This document shows positions 7,232-14,491 of a DNA stretch of 35,581 nt, in pieces. Made by a program: the position numbers and the translations under genes. The stretch comes from a bacterium (GTDB taxonomy: Bacteria > Electryoneota > Electryoneia > Electryoneales > Electryoneaceae). Every line of letters begins with the position of its first letter. Position 1 is the first letter of the stretch. Location: contig JAIOHU010000070.1 of assembly GCA_019912845.1 (NCBI GenBank), positions 1 through 35,581 on the forward strand. The letters run 5' to 3'. Under the pieces are notes generated by a model, which was given only the letters and a program-made list of their open reading frames with translations, was not told the origin of the DNA and searched no databases.

Positions 7232-8878
7232 TTACTCCGTCAATTCTATCGATTTATTTCCACCATAAGGTACTGTTATAGTCCCATTTAACTTATTTTC
7301 AGATGCAATAAACCGATTTTGTGGTAGAATCTTATATTTCCAGTTCCCATGCGGAAGGTTAGCAAATGATACAATTCCTTTTTCGCTGAATGCCCAGTAG
7401 GATTCTCCGAGATCAGCTTCATTCAATAGTACTTGAACTGAATCCAGACCATTTCCCATGCTATCATGCAGAAACAATCGAATCTCAGGGTAGTTTATCG
7501 CCGCAACTGCATCTGGTATCCCATAACCATAAATGTTATCTGGATGATCCGCCTGAGAGGCTGTCATGAGCAATGCTTCCTCGCATTGTTTCGCGCTCCA
7601 ATCCGGATGAGCACCGCGTACAAGTGCCAGGACTCCCGCCAGCACTGGTGTTGAAAGGCTGGTTCCATTCCAGCGTGAGTAGTTGTGCTCGGAGAAGGGA
7701 CGGATGATCGCAGTACGTACCCCCATTGCGCAGAGAGCAGGTTTGATTCTACCATCTCCGGTCGGTCCACGGCTGGAGAAACGTGCGATCTTACCTGTCG
7801 AATCCACTGCTCCACAGCTCAAATTTGTAAATGCGTCCGCTGGTGCTCCCAGGGTACGAGGCTGCGGACCTTCATTGCTCATCGCTGTTGTACAGAGGAT
7901 ACCGAGCTTCCGTGCACGATCCACTCCACGGCTGATAAAGGGCAGCTCACCATCATATTCCGCTTCTGTGTACCAGTCCTTATAAGAAAGTGACGCACTC
8001 AAAACACTCACTCCCAGTCGTCCCGCCCATTCGATAGCAGCGATGAAATTGTCTTCTTCCAGGGGAGTTTCCCTGCGTGTATCTTCAGTTTTAGCGAGCA
8101 CGAAACTCGCTTCGTGCGCAATGCCGATCAGGTTTCCGGGACTATAACCTGCGATCGCAGATAGACAACCAGTACCGTGTGCGGCTTGTCCACGCTTATC
8201 TTCAGGCTCAACACCCGGGTAATCGTCATCATCGACAAAATCATATTGTGCGAAAACATCGATCTGGTTATAGGCTTCGTGCGAGAGTTCAAAGCCGGAG
8301 TCTAACACCAGCATCAACACACCCTTGCCGCGATACCCCAGTCTGTGCGCTTCAATAGCATTCACCTGGAGATTCTGCATGTAGGAAGGACCATACAACC
8401 CAGCACCATCCGCACCCGGACCAGGCGAAGGATAGCCATCCCAACCGCCAACCTCCTCGTAACTGAACCCAGCGATATCGCCATGCAAAACAGGACGCAC
8501 CTCTTTGACAAATGGAAGCGATTTGATGATCGCGAGCGCTTGTTCATCCGCCTCAACGCTGACCGCATTGAACCAGCAGGATTGCTGTCTGATCTTCGCG
8601 CCTGTCTGCCTGATCTGCTCAACATACTCTGGATCGGGTGGTAAGTCTGCCAGGGTTACTAACGAATCGCCTGATAAACCTTCGAGTTTACGGCGCTCTA
8701 TGGCGGTTTGGGTTAACCCATTATTAACTGCGAGATTATAAATCTGGGAGGTGGAAAGAAATTGGCAGTTGGGGCGGTCATCAAGGGTAATCCAAATTCG
8801 ACTGGAATCATTTGCAATTGTGTGAGAACAAAGAATTAGTATTCCGATTAGGATAGAGTATACACTATGTGTTTTCAT
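7232..8878 (-). CDS. Secreted subtilisin-like serine peptidase (S8 family)
   Basis: 548 residues with a signal peptide (MKTHSVYSILIGILILCSHT, cut near IAND). An I9-like propeptide region precedes the catalytic domain. The triad is complete: D193 in VLDSGFELSH, H234 in AAHGTGC and S407 in NGTSLSTPV; an oxyanion-hole Asn is plausible in TAMSNEGP. After about residue 460 there is a small beta-rich C-terminal domain (LFLHDSMGNGLDSVQVLLNE). Unlike the other secreted proteins here, it lacks an NPFN-type T9SS sorting domain, so it is probably periplasmic or exported otherwise. The upstream site is weak (GGAAAG). The twin repeats lie in the 402 bases separating it from the C25-like gene, so co-transcription is doubtful. 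Substrate unknown. Confidence 0.93.
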   Translation of the reverse strand: MKTHSVYSILIGILILCSHTIANDSSRIWITLDDRPNCQFLSTSQIYNLAVNNGLTQTAIERRKLEGLSGDSLVTLADLPPDPEYVEQIRQTGAKIRQQSCWFNAVSVEADEQALAIIKSLPFVKEVRPVLHGDIAGFSYEEVGGWDGYPSPGPGADGAGLYGPSYMQNLQVNAIEAHRLGYRGKGVLMLVLDSGFELSHEAYNQIDVFAQYDFVDDDDYPGVEPEDKRGQAAHGTGCLSAIAGYSPGNLIGIAHEASFVLAKTEDTRRETPLEEDNFIAAIEWAGRLGVSVLSASLSYKDWYTEAEYDGELPFISRGVDRARKLGILCTTAMSNEGPQPRTLGAPADAFTNLSCGAVDSTGKIARFSSRGPTGDGRIKPALCAMGVRTAIIRPFSEHNYSRWNGTSLSTPVLAGVLALVRGAHPDWSAKQCEEALLMTASQADHPDNIYGYGIPDAVAAINYPEIRLFLHDSMGNGLDSVQVLLNEADLGESYWAFSEKGIVSFANLPHGNWKYKILPQNRFIASENKLNGTITVPYGGNKSIELTE

Positions 8879-8905
8879 ATTATTTTCAATTCATGCTTTC
8901 CACAA

Positions 8906-9058
8906 GATGGCCCGACGCTCCGCGTCGGGTTTAATAAACAGATTTATATATAATATCAATCAATCTTATTAGTCGCACTATGGAGAATCATTCAAATTTC
9001 AAAAAATGCATTCGGAATGCTTATGTCTCTTAGACCCGATGCAGAACATCGGGCCATC
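8906..9058. repeat. 153-bp palindrome-ended repeat, copy 1 (MITE/REP-like)
   Basis: The ends are perfect 10-bp inverted repeats, GATGGCCCGA (8906-8915) and TCGGGCCATC (9049-9058). Each end also forms its own hairpin: CCCGACGC/GCGTCGGG (8911-8929) and CCCGATG/CATCGGG (9035-9053). The AT-rich middle has no open frame. Copy 2 follows 52 bases later in the same orientation. Confidence 0.8.
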
Positions 9059-9110
9059 ATGACAAACAAATAGCATCAAAGATCAATATCGTTTTCTATG
9101 AAAGAACCAA

Positions 9111-9262
9111 GATGGCCCGACGCTACGCGTCGGGTTTAATAAACAGATTTAAACATAAGATCAATCAATCTAAAAGATCACACTGTGGAGACTCTTTCAA
9201 ATCTTAATAAATGCATACGGAAGCCTATGTCACTTAGACCCGATGCAGAGCATCGGGTCATC
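9111..9262. repeat. 152-bp palindrome-ended repeat, copy 2 (MITE/REP-like)
   Basis: Direct repeat of copy 1. It has the same hairpin at the left end (CCCGACGC/GCGTCGGG with loop TAC), the shared block GGGTTTAATAAACAGATTTA just inside it, and the shared end CTTAGACCCGATGCAGA..CATCGGG. The terminal inverted repeat has one mismatch (GATGGCCCGA against TCGGGTCATC). The interior has diverged by scattered substitutions and small indels, so the duplication is not very recent. It ends 18 bases from the C25-like gene's stop codon, so on that strand it is the first thing transcribed after the gene. Confidence 0.8.
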
Positions 9263-9280
9263 ACAATATCTTTGTAGGCT

Positions 9281-12200
9281 TTACTTCACCAGCATCATCT
9301 TCTGCGTCTGTACGAATCCTGTTTCACTTGTCATACGGACAAAGTACATGCCACTGGAGAAGGCATCGGCATTGAAGACAACGTTATAGTGCCCTGCTTC
9401 CAGCTTCTGTGACTTCAGGACAGCGACTTCACGTCCGAGTAGATCGAATACCACAAGGTTGATGTTCGCAGTTTGTGGGACAGCGAAACGTATCTGTGTA
9501 GTCGCATTGAACGGATTCGGGTAGGGCGCATCCAGTTGGAAAACATCAGGCAACTCAGCCAGAGCACTTTCCCCGACATCTACTCTGTCCAGATAGAGGG
9601 TTAAAGGAAATGTTGATATCGCTTCGGCTGTGTTGTGTTCAGCGCGGATAAAACCTCGATAGACACCATTATCCAACTCACCCTCACCAAAGGTCACCTC
9701 AACCTGCTCACTATCCCCGGGACTTACTGAAAATTCGGGCGGATCAATCAATGCCCAACCGACGAACAAGTCATACTCCCAGATTATGAGGCGATTATCT
9801 CCATTGGTGTTCACAATGGCAGCGAGAGCAGTATAATCATTCGCAAACCCGTCAATCATCTCAAGGCTACGAATCTCAGCGTCATCATCCTCATAAGGTA
9901 GGCTCGCAACTCTCATACGATCATTGGTTTCGATATTGGCTTTGTAGAGCGCACGATCACTGTTTGCATCAACGGTTGTATAGTATAACGGATAGCCGTC
10001 ATCATCATTACTAAACCACGCCATGCCACTGATATCATCTGAATTGTCCAACTCACCGAAATAGCTACCATCAGTGACTTCCAAGCCTATAATATCACTC
10101 GTTCCGGTTGCAACCCAGAGTACATCGTTACTGCGGTCATAGGTGATGGCATCATGACGGTCGAATACCCCAGCCAAACGTCTCATCTCAAGTCCTGTAC
10201 CCGGGTCCATACCGATCAAGTCCTGGTTGTAACTTCCCCAAAGCAATTTGCCATCAAAAGCGAGATCGTGGAATCCAGTCGCATCAGCACCTTGTTCAGC
10301 ACTTCCTGGTTGGCCGAATAAACGTTCATATTGTCCTTGTTCAGAAACCACATAAACAATATTCGGATTAACATTTCCGTTTGAACCAGTAATGAAATGA
10401 CGTCCTTCTGCATAAGCTAGTCCGTGAAGATTCTGATCTCGTGTTACTGATCCCATATCCCTGTCGAACAAAACGTCAAGGAATTCATCAGTCTCAATCT
10501 GAGGGAATACACGCATGCTAACATCTAACTGTGCCGAACCAGGATTTCGCACCCACATGCTCCTGACGATTGGATCGGCGGACTGCAGGGTAACAAGGAA
10601 GCTATCTGTGGAGGCATCAAAAATACCCACACCCAGCGAGATATCGACAGTCGTTATTTCTGCGGAATCAACCACGACATCTGGATGGGTAAAAATAGCA
10701 TAAGGGGGATTATCGACCAGGATATCATAATTGCCGACTCGTAAATCGATGGTGTAAAATCCCTCTTCATTTGAAATGGTCGCACGTGGGCTGCCATCAA
10801 AACCTACTACGATTCCTTCTAAAGGGTCGCCGGTATTACCATCGGTCACATGACCCTGTAATGTCCCCGCGACAACGGAAACATCTGTTGAGAATAGATA
10901 TACACGTCCATCCTCAACTGGTGCCGCGCCGGATTCATAACGTTGCCAATAAGCGATGAGCAAACCATCGGTCTGGTCACCATTTTCGATTCCGGCAGTA
11001 AAATACTGTGTATCGGTTCCACCACCCTGAGAATGATTGACCTCTAAATACTGGAACGCAAAATCATTATCACCAGTGATCGTGGGATGGGTAATCTGAT
11101 TGTAGAAGATCACCTGGAAAGTACATGGGTTACTGTTGGAAACATCCAGCAGAGAAGTAAACTGGACGATAAACCGTCCATTTTCGACGTCATTGTATGC
11201 GTGAATAGCTGAGTTGCCACCCATACGTCTCTCATCCCAATAGGGAGCGATCATATACCTCGCACCAAGCGGTGAGGGGATTGTCCATGCGCGATGTGCT
11301 GCTATATCAGACTGATCACCCATGGCAACAAAACCATTGCTGCAGACAGTGATTTGATCAAATACCTCGCCATAGTATTGGATGTCAAACGGCAAATCGA
11401 GAGCGACTGACTCATCATTATCTTCGCCGTTGTCGTTAATACCCAGATCAGTACCGTTGAAATCCGGGTCTGGCCTGTCGGGGTTAATCTCGATCCAATC
11501 GAAGGTCGGAACAGCTTCATAGTCTTCGTCTGTATCATCAAAGGCATAGTAGCCATAGCTGTCAGGTCCCAAGGGATCGGTGGAAGTCCGAGTTCCAATG
11601 ACAATAGGAATTCGTAATGAATCTACCTGCCCGTTTTCACTTGTGATAATAATTTCAGGGTAAACCCGATAACCCGGGGTGGCACTCGCACTTGCTGCAA
11701 TATTAAAACTGCTGGTGATCGCATTGTCACCAACATCTGCTGCGGAAATGACCGCCTGGTTTTGCGGAATCGTCAGCTTGTCATCTTCACTACTCATTAC
11801 AACTGTCCCCGCGGCACCGTCACTCCCACCAACGTTATTCAGGGTAATTGTAATTGCAGCTTGACCTCCAGGCTCAAAATTATCCACTCCATTTATGGCA
11901 ACAAGAGCATAACGAGGTGCAAGTATTTCCAGTGCAAAATCATCCTCAAAGTTACCTGCATTGCTGCTGAAGTCGAGGGTGAGATGTGCATTCCATTCAT
12001 TCTGGGAAGCAGCATTGACCTCGACAAGGATGAGTCCATCACCTTGAGAGGTTTGTCCGGGTGTCAGGTTGCCATAGGTAATCTCACCATCAACCTCACG
12101 AATCCAAATGTCATCCGATGAAGCGGTAACTGTAACATTCTGAGCGTCTGAAGTGCCGTAATTTTCAGCGGTCACACGCAGTCCTACAATCTCCCCCGCT

Positions 12201-14248
12201 TCCGGGATGCCATTATCATTGCCTCTCGTGCCATTTTCGCCATCATCCTGTATGCTAATTGAATTATAACTAACGCGCTCTGCATCCTGAACAACGGTGA
12301 TCGTTTGACGAACAACTTCATGATTTTGTTTTGAAACAGTCAGAAGCGCATTGCCAGAAAATCGTATCTCTGGATTAATTGTGATCAAACCACTGGCATC
12401 GGTCACTCCGGTAACCATCGTTTCTTCATTATCATCTACTTTGTACCAGGTCACCCATGCATTTTTCACAGGGCTATTTCCAGAAAACACACGCACAGAA
12501 ACCCCATTACTCCCCACCGCAATTTCGTCAGGCGCTTCTATGCTCATTTCATCTGGACGTTTGCTCCACACTGATACAGTCGGATCGCCCATGAGGTTAT
12601 ACCACTCGAGGAAATTGATGTACCCGTTATCAACACCAGCATAATTATCAATCAAGCTCAGTTTACCACCGGTTAATATGTCACCAAGTCCTGGAGTTCT
12701 CATTACCAGGAAGGCAGACCCTGAACCACCTGTGATAATATTGTTGTACCGAGTGTGGGTACTAAGTGTAGCGGTTCCCATGGCACCAATACCCCCCGTT
12801 GGTGAATTAGGAGTACCCGCTCGTATGTATGCTTCAGTGATAGCATCGCCAGTCCATGATCCTGTACCACAAGTAATATCAATGCAAACTGGTGTCATAT
12901 TGTTATTGTTCAAGCTCAATATCTGGTTCGTGGATAATCCTGCACCAACCCATCCGCCTCTGCACATATATAACCCAACACCGTTGTTGATACGATCTAT
13001 GCTGCGACCATTTACATTGCCTGCACCCCACGGTCCGATCCACGCTGTATCAACCTGTGTATATCCAATCTCAAGCATCCAGTGTCGATACCATCTACCT
13101 ATAAAGACTGGTGAGATACCTGCCATGGCGGAAGGATAAGATAGATGCCCTCTGCCAAGCCATTCATCGTTACTGTTGCTGTTTCGTTCGTACTCAATAA
13201 CTTTGTTGACGTAAGTTCTCACTTCATTTTGACTGGTTACACTTATACGACCGATATGAACATCAGGGATGTTATCATTCCCCACCAGAGTGGAATAGGC
13301 ATGATCACCCTGTCCCTGTGAGGGAGGAGTGGAATAATTGCCATTAGCATCACCAACAATGACGACATAATCAAATTTGGTTTCTGCTGCAGCATAGCGA
13401 TCCTCCAGTTCATTAGCAATTGCTCCAGCCTGCCAGTTGACATCATCATCGGTCAATAGATCAATCGTCCATCCCTTCTGTTTCTTCCATTCGAACCAGG
13501 GTTCCATTAAACCTAATAGTTGCTGATTGTCTGGCATTACTACCTGAACATGTCCACGATAGAGGGTGTATTCATCCAATTCTGAGTCATCCCAATCCAG
13601 AAGATTACGGTAAAATGGCAGAAATGCTTCGGAGATATGCGTGGGATTTGCAGGCAGTGTGCAACGATTATCATCACCTTCGTAACGGATTTCCACCTGG
13701 ATATTGCTGTAGACACGTACCTCACGCCGGGCACGATTCACTTGAACGGGAAAAGTAACGAGATTTGAGACACGGAAGTCTTTAAATCTCCCGGGATCAG
13801 CTATTCTAGCCAGCTCGCCTGGATACCAGGCATCCTCAAGGTCATTGTTTTCCGTAAGCGGTTCAATTCCATCTTCACCGAAATACAAAGCATATTCAAC
13901 ACCCGAAAAGGTCTCATATTCTGACTCAATCACTTCAACAACTGCACCGCCCTGTGGGGGTAGCCTAAACATTCTTCCAACAACTGGAACAATGGGAAAC
14001 CCATCAACTTCAAGATCACCCGCCTGCGGATATGATGCCCTCAGAGCTTCACCTTCAACTGATTCTGATGGTATCCAGGAAGGACCGTCGATTTGCAGGG
14101 ACAATCTCATCCCGTTGTCGAGGGTTATCCTTTCTGAAACGGTGACAGGAAATGAATGTGAAGCTGATAATTGTTGTGAAACAGGGAAAGCAAATGTTGT
14201 GGTAAAGAGGACAAATAAAAAAGAAAGAATCAGGCGCCTTGTCATCAT
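9281..14248 (-). CDS. Large secreted gingipain-like (peptidase C25 family) protein with T9SS sorting domain
   Basis: 1655 residues from ATG 14248 (GGAGG 5 bases upstream). The signal peptide is MMTRRLILSFLFVLFTTTFA. A gingipain-type propeptide region (about 30-200) is followed by the C25-like domain (about 230-560: FDYVVIVGDANG, IPDVHIGRISV). The nucleophile Cys is present, C460 in DITCGTGSW, but the site that is normally N-x-x-G-H-G reads MCRGGWVG (R430-G431), so the catalytic His is apparently missing. Next come Ig/CARDB-like beta domains (NDNGIPEAGEIVGLRV), a large beta domain (DLPFDIQYYGEVFDQITVCS), a carboxypeptidase-regulatory domain (LEGIVVGFDG...NEEGFYTIDL), a propeller-like region (HDLAFDGKLLWGS, YDRSNDVLWVATG) and the C-terminal sorting domain (YPNPFNATTQI, DLLGREVAVL, MYFVRM). 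Surface attachment or release by T9SS is expected; a role in proteolysis is uncertain. Confidence 0.9.
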   Translation of the reverse strand: MMTRRLILSFLFVLFTTTFAFPVSQQLSASHSFPVTVSERITLDNGMRLSLQIDGPSWIPSESVEGEALRASYPQAGDLEVDGFPIVPVVGRMFRLPPQGGAVVEVIESEYETFSGVEYALYFGEDGIEPLTENNDLEDAWYPGELARIADPGRFKDFRVSNLVTFPVQVNRARREVRVYSNIQVEIRYEGDDNRCTLPANPTHISEAFLPFYRNLLDWDDSELDEYTLYRGHVQVVMPDNQQLLGLMEPWFEWKKQKGWTIDLLTDDDVNWQAGAIANELEDRYAAAETKFDYVVIVGDANGNYSTPPSQGQGDHAYSTLVGNDNIPDVHIGRISVTSQNEVRTYVNKVIEYERNSNSNDEWLGRGHLSYPSAMAGISPVFIGRWYRHWMLEIGYTQVDTAWIGPWGAGNVNGRSIDRINNGVGLYMCRGGWVGAGLSTNQILSLNNNNMTPVCIDITCGTGSWTGDAITEAYIRAGTPNSPTGGIGAMGTATLSTHTRYNNIITGGSGSAFLVMRTPGLGDILTGGKLSLIDNYAGVDNGYINFLEWYNLMGDPTVSVWSKRPDEMSIEAPDEIAVGSNGVSVRVFSGNSPVKNAWVTWYKVDDNEETMVTGVTDASGLITINPEIRFSGNALLTVSKQNHEVVRQTITVVQDAERVSYNSISIQDDGENGTRGNDNGIPEAGEIVGLRVTAENYGTSDAQNVTVTASSDDIWIREVDGEITYGNLTPGQTSQGDGLILVEVNAASQNEWNAHLTLDFSSNAGNFEDDFALEILAPRYALVAINGVDNFEPGGQAAITITLNNVGGSDGAAGTVVMSSEDDKLTIPQNQAVISAADVGDNAITSSFNIAASASATPGYRVYPEIIITSENGQVDSLRIPIVIGTRTSTDPLGPDSYGYYAFDDTDEDYEAVPTFDWIEINPDRPDPDFNGTDLGINDNGEDNDESVALDLPFDIQYYGEVFDQITVCSNGFVAMGDQSDIAAHRAWTIPSPLGARYMIAPYWDERRMGGNSAIHAYNDVENGRFIVQFTSLLDVSNSNPCTFQVIFYNQITHPTITGDNDFAFQYLEVNHSQGGGTDTQYFTAGIENGDQTDGLLIAYWQRYESGAAPVEDGRVYLFSTDVSVVAGTLQGHVTDGNTGDPLEGIVVGFDGSPRATISNEEGFYTIDLRVGNYDILVDNPPYAIFTHPDVVVDSAEITTVDISLGVGIFDASTDSFLVTLQSADPIVRSMWVRNPGSAQLDVSMRVFPQIETDEFLDVLFDRDMGSVTRDQNLHGLAYAEGRHFITGSNGNVNPNIVYVVSEQGQYERLFGQPGSAEQGADATGFHDLAFDGKLLWGSYNQDLIGMDPGTGLEMRRLAGVFDRHDAITYDRSNDVLWVATGTSDIIGLEVTDGSYFGELDNSDDISGMAWFSNDDDGYPLYYTTVDANSDRALYKANIETNDRMRVASLPYEDDDAEIRSLEMIDGFANDYTALAAIVNTNGDNRLIIWEYDLFVGWALIDPPEFSVSPGDSEQVEVTFGEGELDNGVYRGFIRAEHNTAEAISTFPLTLYLDRVDVGESALAELPDVFQLDAPYPNPFNATTQIRFAVPQTANINLVVFDLLGREVAVLKSQKLEAGHYNVVFNADAFSSGMYFVRMTSETGFVQTQKMMLVK

Positions 14249-14253
14249 GGTAG

Positions 14254-14258
14254 CCTCC
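14254..14258 (-). promoter_or_regulatory. Ribosome binding site of the C25-like gene
   Basis: GGAGG on the minus strand, 5 bases before ATG 14248. It selects that start over the upstream in-frame TTG at 14275, which would place the ribosome site inside the coding sequence. Confidence 0.8.
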
Positions 14259-14491
14259 GGTGCGTGTTGCTGCAAGCAACCTCGTTCAATTGAGCTATCA
14301 AATCACTCTCGAAAAAGAGATCAAGATTGTTCTCGGAATATTCATGATCATTTATCGAGAATGGTAACTTTCACTATCAATCTGCTAAAATATACTAATG
14401 GATATGGTAATGCTAGAAATTCCCAAAAGTTTTGGGAGATCCACTGGTCAATAATCAGAAGTTACTATAATCCTTAACTTTATCAATGAGA

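Follow-up and report, generated by a model that had tools for sequence, protein, structure and literature searches.

A dispersed REP-like hairpin family with an atypical foot and its tandem inverted doublets in a bacterial genome

Tandem units between two peptidase genes

The window, i.e. the whole stretch of 35,581 nucleotides that was analysed, carries a repeat region bordered by two protease genes. The gene of a C25 peptidase with a C-terminal secretion sorting domain (Por_Secre_tail) occupies positions 9281-14275 on the minus strand, and a subtilase gene (peptidase S8; 7232-8878) is located on the same strand, downstream of the repeats. Between them, two units follow each other in the same orientation: unit 1 at 8906-9058 (plus strand, 153 bp), a spacer of 52 bp at 9059-9110, and unit 2 at 9111-9262 (plus strand, 152 bp), the two units being 86% identical. 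The original prediction of a tandem pair in the same orientation, 52 bases apart and with inverted hairpin ends, was confirmed by direct reading, and its unit length of 153 bp applies to unit 1, whereas unit 2 is one base pair shorter.

Both units start with GATGGCCCGACGC and finish with CATCGGG(C/T)CATC. Each unit end forms a hairpin by itself, and the two ends of one unit are inverted copies of each other, with 38-nt arms that are 79% complementary in unit 1. The fold of this unit reaches -50.8 kcal/mol against a shuffle mean of -28.5 (z -6.2), a value matched by none of 200 shuffles. At up to two mismatches GATGGCCCGACGC occurs four times in the window (0.49 expected), and a second hairpin motif is likewise found four times at up to three mismatches (0.00 expected).

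With the extent taken from the profile described below, the hairpins of unit 1 are placed at 8905-8947 (plus strand, 5' partner) and 9017-9059 (minus strand, 3' partner), and those of unit 2 at 9110-9152 (plus strand, 5' partner) and 9221-9263 (minus strand, 3' partner). The 5' partners show a GACG stem and the tail TTTAATAAACA, the 3' partners a GATG stem followed by the tail TCTAAGAGACA in unit 1 and TCTAAGTGACA in unit 2. The window units are two heterodimers of REPs (repetitive extragenic palindromes) with their feet outside, in a REPIN/BIME-like arrangement. A local duplication best accounts for the second of them.

Dispersal and architecture of the GATGG hairpin

The whole unit, used as a query against its own genome (4.65 Mb in 297 contigs, 92% complete), yielded 52 matches, with 40 of the 64 first-look candidates scored. 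Two of the matches are full-length and correspond to the window copies; the other 50 cover one end only, over at most 45 nt. A second query led to the same result, the window copies alone matching over the full length. The dispersed part is an end of about 43 nt, AGATGGCCCGATGCTYTGCRTCGGGTYTAAGNGACAWATTCW, and the middle of the unit recurs only in the window. The 25-nt core of this hairpin (the GATGG family in the following) is present in 56 copies at up to two mismatches, and 63 rows are obtained at up to three, the palindromic place on contig C218 being counted on both strands. The reversed core pattern, serving as a control, has no match in the same genome. A lack of further genomic copies had been named as the outcome that would reduce the pair to a local duplication; this applies to the unit as a whole but not to its ends, of which more than 50 copies exist. 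The REP-doublet family suggested earlier is borne out: each unit is an inverted doublet, and its ends are REP-like hairpins dispersed across the genome. No match to the hairpin core was obtained in 60 relatives (six sharing the family, 32 the phylum, and 22 the domain), and an exact hairpin match was found neither in genome_contigs nor in viral_contigs, collections that may not include this genome or very close ones.

Hairpins of the family are also encountered in composite settings. A larger repeat of about 630 bp (G000:C16:11099-11729, with copies on C21, C112, C15, C294, and C135) has a GATGG hairpin inside. Several intergenic stretches (L069, L072, L088, L096, and others) are mosaics of more hairpin families, including GGAGCGCCACACTCCAGTGTGGC, GTCATGCCAGC..GCTGGCATCCAGGAAG, and CTCCCCGGGTTCCGCTTCGCTACACGCCGGGG, for which no RAYT was seen.

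Architecture and placement refer to 59 sites at up to five mismatches, drawn from 40 fetched stretches plus the window, with four weaker places (three to four mismatches) outside this count. Fifty-eight of the sites have enough flank for a profile, and removing those with redundant flanks left 35. The boundaries of the hairpin in these 35 are sharp: from -1 to about +41 the information content is high, and beyond these limits it drops close to background. The foot, GATG(G), the stem, and the ACA of the tail are nearly invariant across sites; the first CA in the tail is found at offset 9 in 42 of the 59 sites and at offset 7 in ten. The stem pair 11-19 is T-G in 27 sites, T-A in 27, C-G in five, and C-A in none, where T-G in part marks a subfamily and its 27 sites are not independent events. 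The GATG strand is more stable than its complement in 56 of the 59 sites, and the G-T pairs single out the 5'-GATG strand as the folding one.

Relative to mechanically called ORFs of at least 100 aa, 53 of the 59 sites lie between two ORFs, five at a contig end with one flanking ORF, and one inside an ORF of 138 aa. Being dispersed, sharply bounded, mostly located between ORFs, and folding on one strand, the hairpin is assigned as REP-like. Nineteen neighbouring pairs are less than 1 kb apart, 13 of them direct, two with feet inside, and four with feet outside, and the remaining sites are single; the doublet is not the main dispersed form. Besides the window units, the foot-outside pairs are those at C222:1043-1195 (153 bp) and C138:14031-14440 (410 bp). 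All four are heterodimers: the stem is GACG in the 5' partner, whose tail differs from TYTAAG, and GATG in the 3' partner.

RAYT-like genes and their private hairpins

The genome harbors IS200-type copies on C87 and C245 and six genes near the model of REP-associated tyrosine transposases NF047646, those on C78 and C288 above the cut-off and those on C135, C102, C48, and C109 below it; two more matches to the model are weak. A wider profile search retrieved the same RAYT-like genes and two weak extra matches, and among solved structures the TnpArep chain 4er8 is a weak match for the C78 protein (E 6.6e-4). These six genes are flanked by five hairpin families, all of them other than the GATGG hairpin: CGCAACATCTTCGGATGTTGCGG at C78, GCACGGGCGTCTCGCCCGTG at C135, TTGGCTTGGGATTTATCCCAAGTYTAAT in common at C102 and C109, tandem AACGCGCTGAAGCACGCACTCAC at C48, and inverted pairs, e.g. 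CACGGGGATGAG..CTCATCCCCGTG, at C288. The GATGG hairpin was not detected in the RAYT flanks of this 92% complete genome (1.5 kb where the contig allows, two flanks being shortened by contig ends) and shows no link to C87 and C245 in the flanks searched. Searches via PF01797, NF047646, one protein, and two alignments revealed no RAYT linked to it, and among 93 stretches in genome_contigs that fit a pattern of the RAYT alignment none was confirmed. A transposase gene sharing the unit ends, whose presence had been suggested as a check, was not found beside GATGG hairpins.

Several of these loci show peculiarities of their own. The RAYT on C109 (G000:C109, 1429-1965, minus strand) is 94% identical to that on C102 and reads MINPIH where the latter has MINHIH; since a Pro replaces the first His of the HUH motif, the protein is probably inactive. 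In the RAYT on C135 (G000:C135, 1405-2157, minus strand; 250 aa), the N-terminal stretch reads through the gene's own hairpin repeats (SIHASISPAENHG). Directly 5' of the RAYT gene on C48, tandem AACGCGCTGAAGCACGCACTCACTGGGTT-like units at about 1065-1360 (G000:C48) are also readable as a repetitive ORF. The hairpins of the C288 RAYT (about 1321-1432 and 1990-2100) consist of arms of about 12 bp with roughly 70 nt between them, a very long loop for a REP. At about 1486-2535 of G000:C86, a 350-aa ORF with no hairpins noticed nearby gives a weak match (E 0.004) to the model of REP transposases.

The RAYT type of C102 and C288 occurs in 19 of 41 genomes, the own genome included. Its best match outside is G004:C196, 46% identical to the C102 protein and 48% to that of C288. 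There, GGTGGCCCGGGGCTTGCCCCGGGTTTA is present twice upstream of the gene and once, inverted, about 580 bp downstream; in the G004 genome it is found at 13 places at up to three mismatches and at none when reversed. This hairpin resembles the window hairpin in the foot, the first stem bases, and the start of the tail. A rule of the form 'TGG foot, C..G hairpin, T[TC][TC]' was framed after 17 RAYT flanks had been read, and two of 30 loci were dropped for want of a HUH ORF. The rule fits 12 of the 28 loci (eight on both sides) against one of 560 shuffled flank sets, which is a post hoc figure, and one of the nine among the 28 that were unread before it was framed. None of eight held-out loci fits (0 of 400 shuffles); by eye, six of these are bordered on either side by matching hairpins whose feet differ from the rule, one has such hairpins on one side, and one has none. 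Private hairpins are thus usual for RAYTs of the C102/C288 clade, but a shared TGG foot and TYY tail was rejected as a general rule.

Origin of the family and likeness to known systems

Most probably, the four window hairpins belong to a REP family that is confined, as far as searched, to its own genome and has been spread as single-stranded DNA via an enzyme of the RAYT kind. This reading is supported by the 56 core copies against none for the reversed pattern, the sharp ends, the placement between ORFs, the conserved foot and tail, the pairing retained on one strand, the presence of RAYT genes that each have a hairpin family, and the similar hairpin on both sides of the RAYT gene at G004:C196. 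The missing adjoining RAYT, the GATG(G) foot, the predominance of direct pairs, and the foot/tail rule's failure at all held-out loci count against it. The GATGG family would represent a non-autonomous element spreading in single-stranded form, with a RAYT-type Y1 HUH enzyme reading foot and hairpin and cutting in the conserved tail, where a C|A cut would agree with the ACA that hardly varies. For TnpAREP enzymes, the part of the literature consulted describes action on the REP strand and not on its complement, use of the foot, and cleavage at CT, with one enzyme cutting also at CA (PMC8266576). As no RAYT-like gene was found beside GATGG hairpins, the cognate enzyme may be lost, may be encoded in the unassembled part of the 92% complete genome, or may be another RAYT of the own genome that acts in trans. 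The last variant, an orphan REP family spread by a RAYT whose cognate hairpins have a different stem (C102 or C288), is considered rather unlikely. If true, one enzyme would serve several hairpin families that have little in common beyond TGG in the foot and the first part of the tail.

It is less likely again that the hairpins are retained mainly for a role in transcripts, ending them or shielding their 3' ends. Judged by gene order and strand, transcription of the C25 gene would enter the repeats, and 18 bp lie between its stop codon and the end of the core of one REP, the 3' partner of unit 2. G-T pairs suit an RNA hairpin on one strand, but they also suit single-stranded DNA. Among 42 co-directional sites, 27 are nearer to the upstream stop and 15 nearer to the downstream start, and gaps with a REP are rarely divergent (3 of 37 vs 15 of 59 without a REP in the same stretches, p = 0.058). 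However, the REP points with the genes in 21 of the co-directional sites and against them in 21, though only one strand pairs well. A search for intrinsic terminators (a GC-rich hairpin, then a T run) in 8700-9500 found none, with 0.4 expected by chance, which makes for a weak test. No Rfam family reached its gathering score, three matches staying below it (MIR4371 with 25.8 of 110, E 0.0027; CRISPR-DR20 with 20.8 and 18.4 of 42). According to the passages of PMC6006769 consulted, REPs elsewhere raise the stability of mRNA and bring about termination, and an effect on the C25 transcript is possible.

Slightly more doubtful still is the MITE of 153 bp put forward in the original prediction, i.e. 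a whole unit with terminal inverted repeats that moves via an end-reading transposase. The inverted ends and the two window copies conform to it, as does the length of exactly 153 bp of the third pair, at C222. C78-type hairpins and two C288-type inverted pairs lie inside the C138 pair; judged by eye, this pair would shrink to about 147 bp once some 263 bp of presumed later inserts are subtracted. However, the C222 middle resembles unit 1 no more than shuffled sequence does (241 of 1000 as good) and is only marginally close to unit 2 (25 of 500), and most end copies are single or in direct pairs. With the full unit covered by only two of the 52 matches, no flush direct repeat as a target duplication at the ends of either window unit (by eye), and no transposase gene with these ends, the notion of a dispersed 153-bp element was abandoned. 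A chance or simple local duplication that arose in place, without wider meaning, is very improbable: the full unit is found only in the window and local duplication still explains unit 2, but the more than 50 dispersed end copies, against none in the reversed control, refute it for the ends.

The REP family favoured here shares several traits with the GTAG-tagged REP families, as far as the consulted sections of PMC3733652 describe them: a short stem with a 3-nt loop, a conserved 5' foot tetranucleotide, and G-T pairs in the stem; a location mostly between ORFs in single, paired, and grouped copies; and heterodimers of different stems, with several families per genome. It differs from them in the foot, GATG(G) vs GTAG (GTGG in one family), in a conserved tail of about 18 nt, and in the predominance of direct pairs, whereas head-to-tail dimers are rare in most of the genomes treated there (PMC3733652). 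Its 56 copies contrast with the more than 100 that are usual for REPs according to the part of PMC2817692 consulted. An unpaired GTAG/GTGG foot 5' of the hairpin is absent from the family; since the foot is GATG(G), the hairpin is REP-like with an atypical foot and not a GTAG REP. REPINs and BIMEs, in the excerpts consulted, consist of two inverted REPs with the feet outside, as do the window units, which stand in tandem (PMC3116915, PMC2817692, PMC6006769). In the GATGG family, however, such pairs number four among 59 sites, and their spacers are not conserved between loci.

The table row for RAYT subclass 2.6 lists NH[LIV]H, WQ, YIH[QN]NP, a length of about 179 aa, and an SS extension, and the REPs of this subclass are said to have 'atypical secondary structures' in Bacteroidetes (consulted part of PMC6006769). 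Compared by reading with this table passage, the C102 RAYT resembles the row (178 aa, NHIH, WQ, YIHNNP, SS), and its flanking hairpins, which lack GT[AG]G, recur beside the C109 paralogue. In contrast, C288 reads YIRKNP, and GATGG hairpins do not lie beside C102 or C288. Ends of IS200/IS605 elements are comparable in their subterminal hairpin, 5' guide tetranucleotide, and single-stranded cutting (PMC6006769, as far as consulted), but no transposase gene lies between two GATGG ends, and the C87 and C245 copies are unlinked to them in the flanks searched.

The consulted parts of the literature already describe REPs, their doublets and heterodimers, the coexistence of several families in one genome, and feet of atypical sequence (PMC3733652, PMC6006769, PMC2817692), and the exact GATGG family is new as far as sequence collections and literature titles were searched. 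Beside at least five pairings of a RAYT with a hairpin family, the genome contains an abundant family of hairpins that has no partner gene. It offers a concrete case for asking whether RAYTs serve their own REPs only, with a predicted foot GATGG and a predicted cut site in the tail ACA. It also illustrates how hairpin families nested in one another turn the spaces between the genes of such a genome into mosaics.
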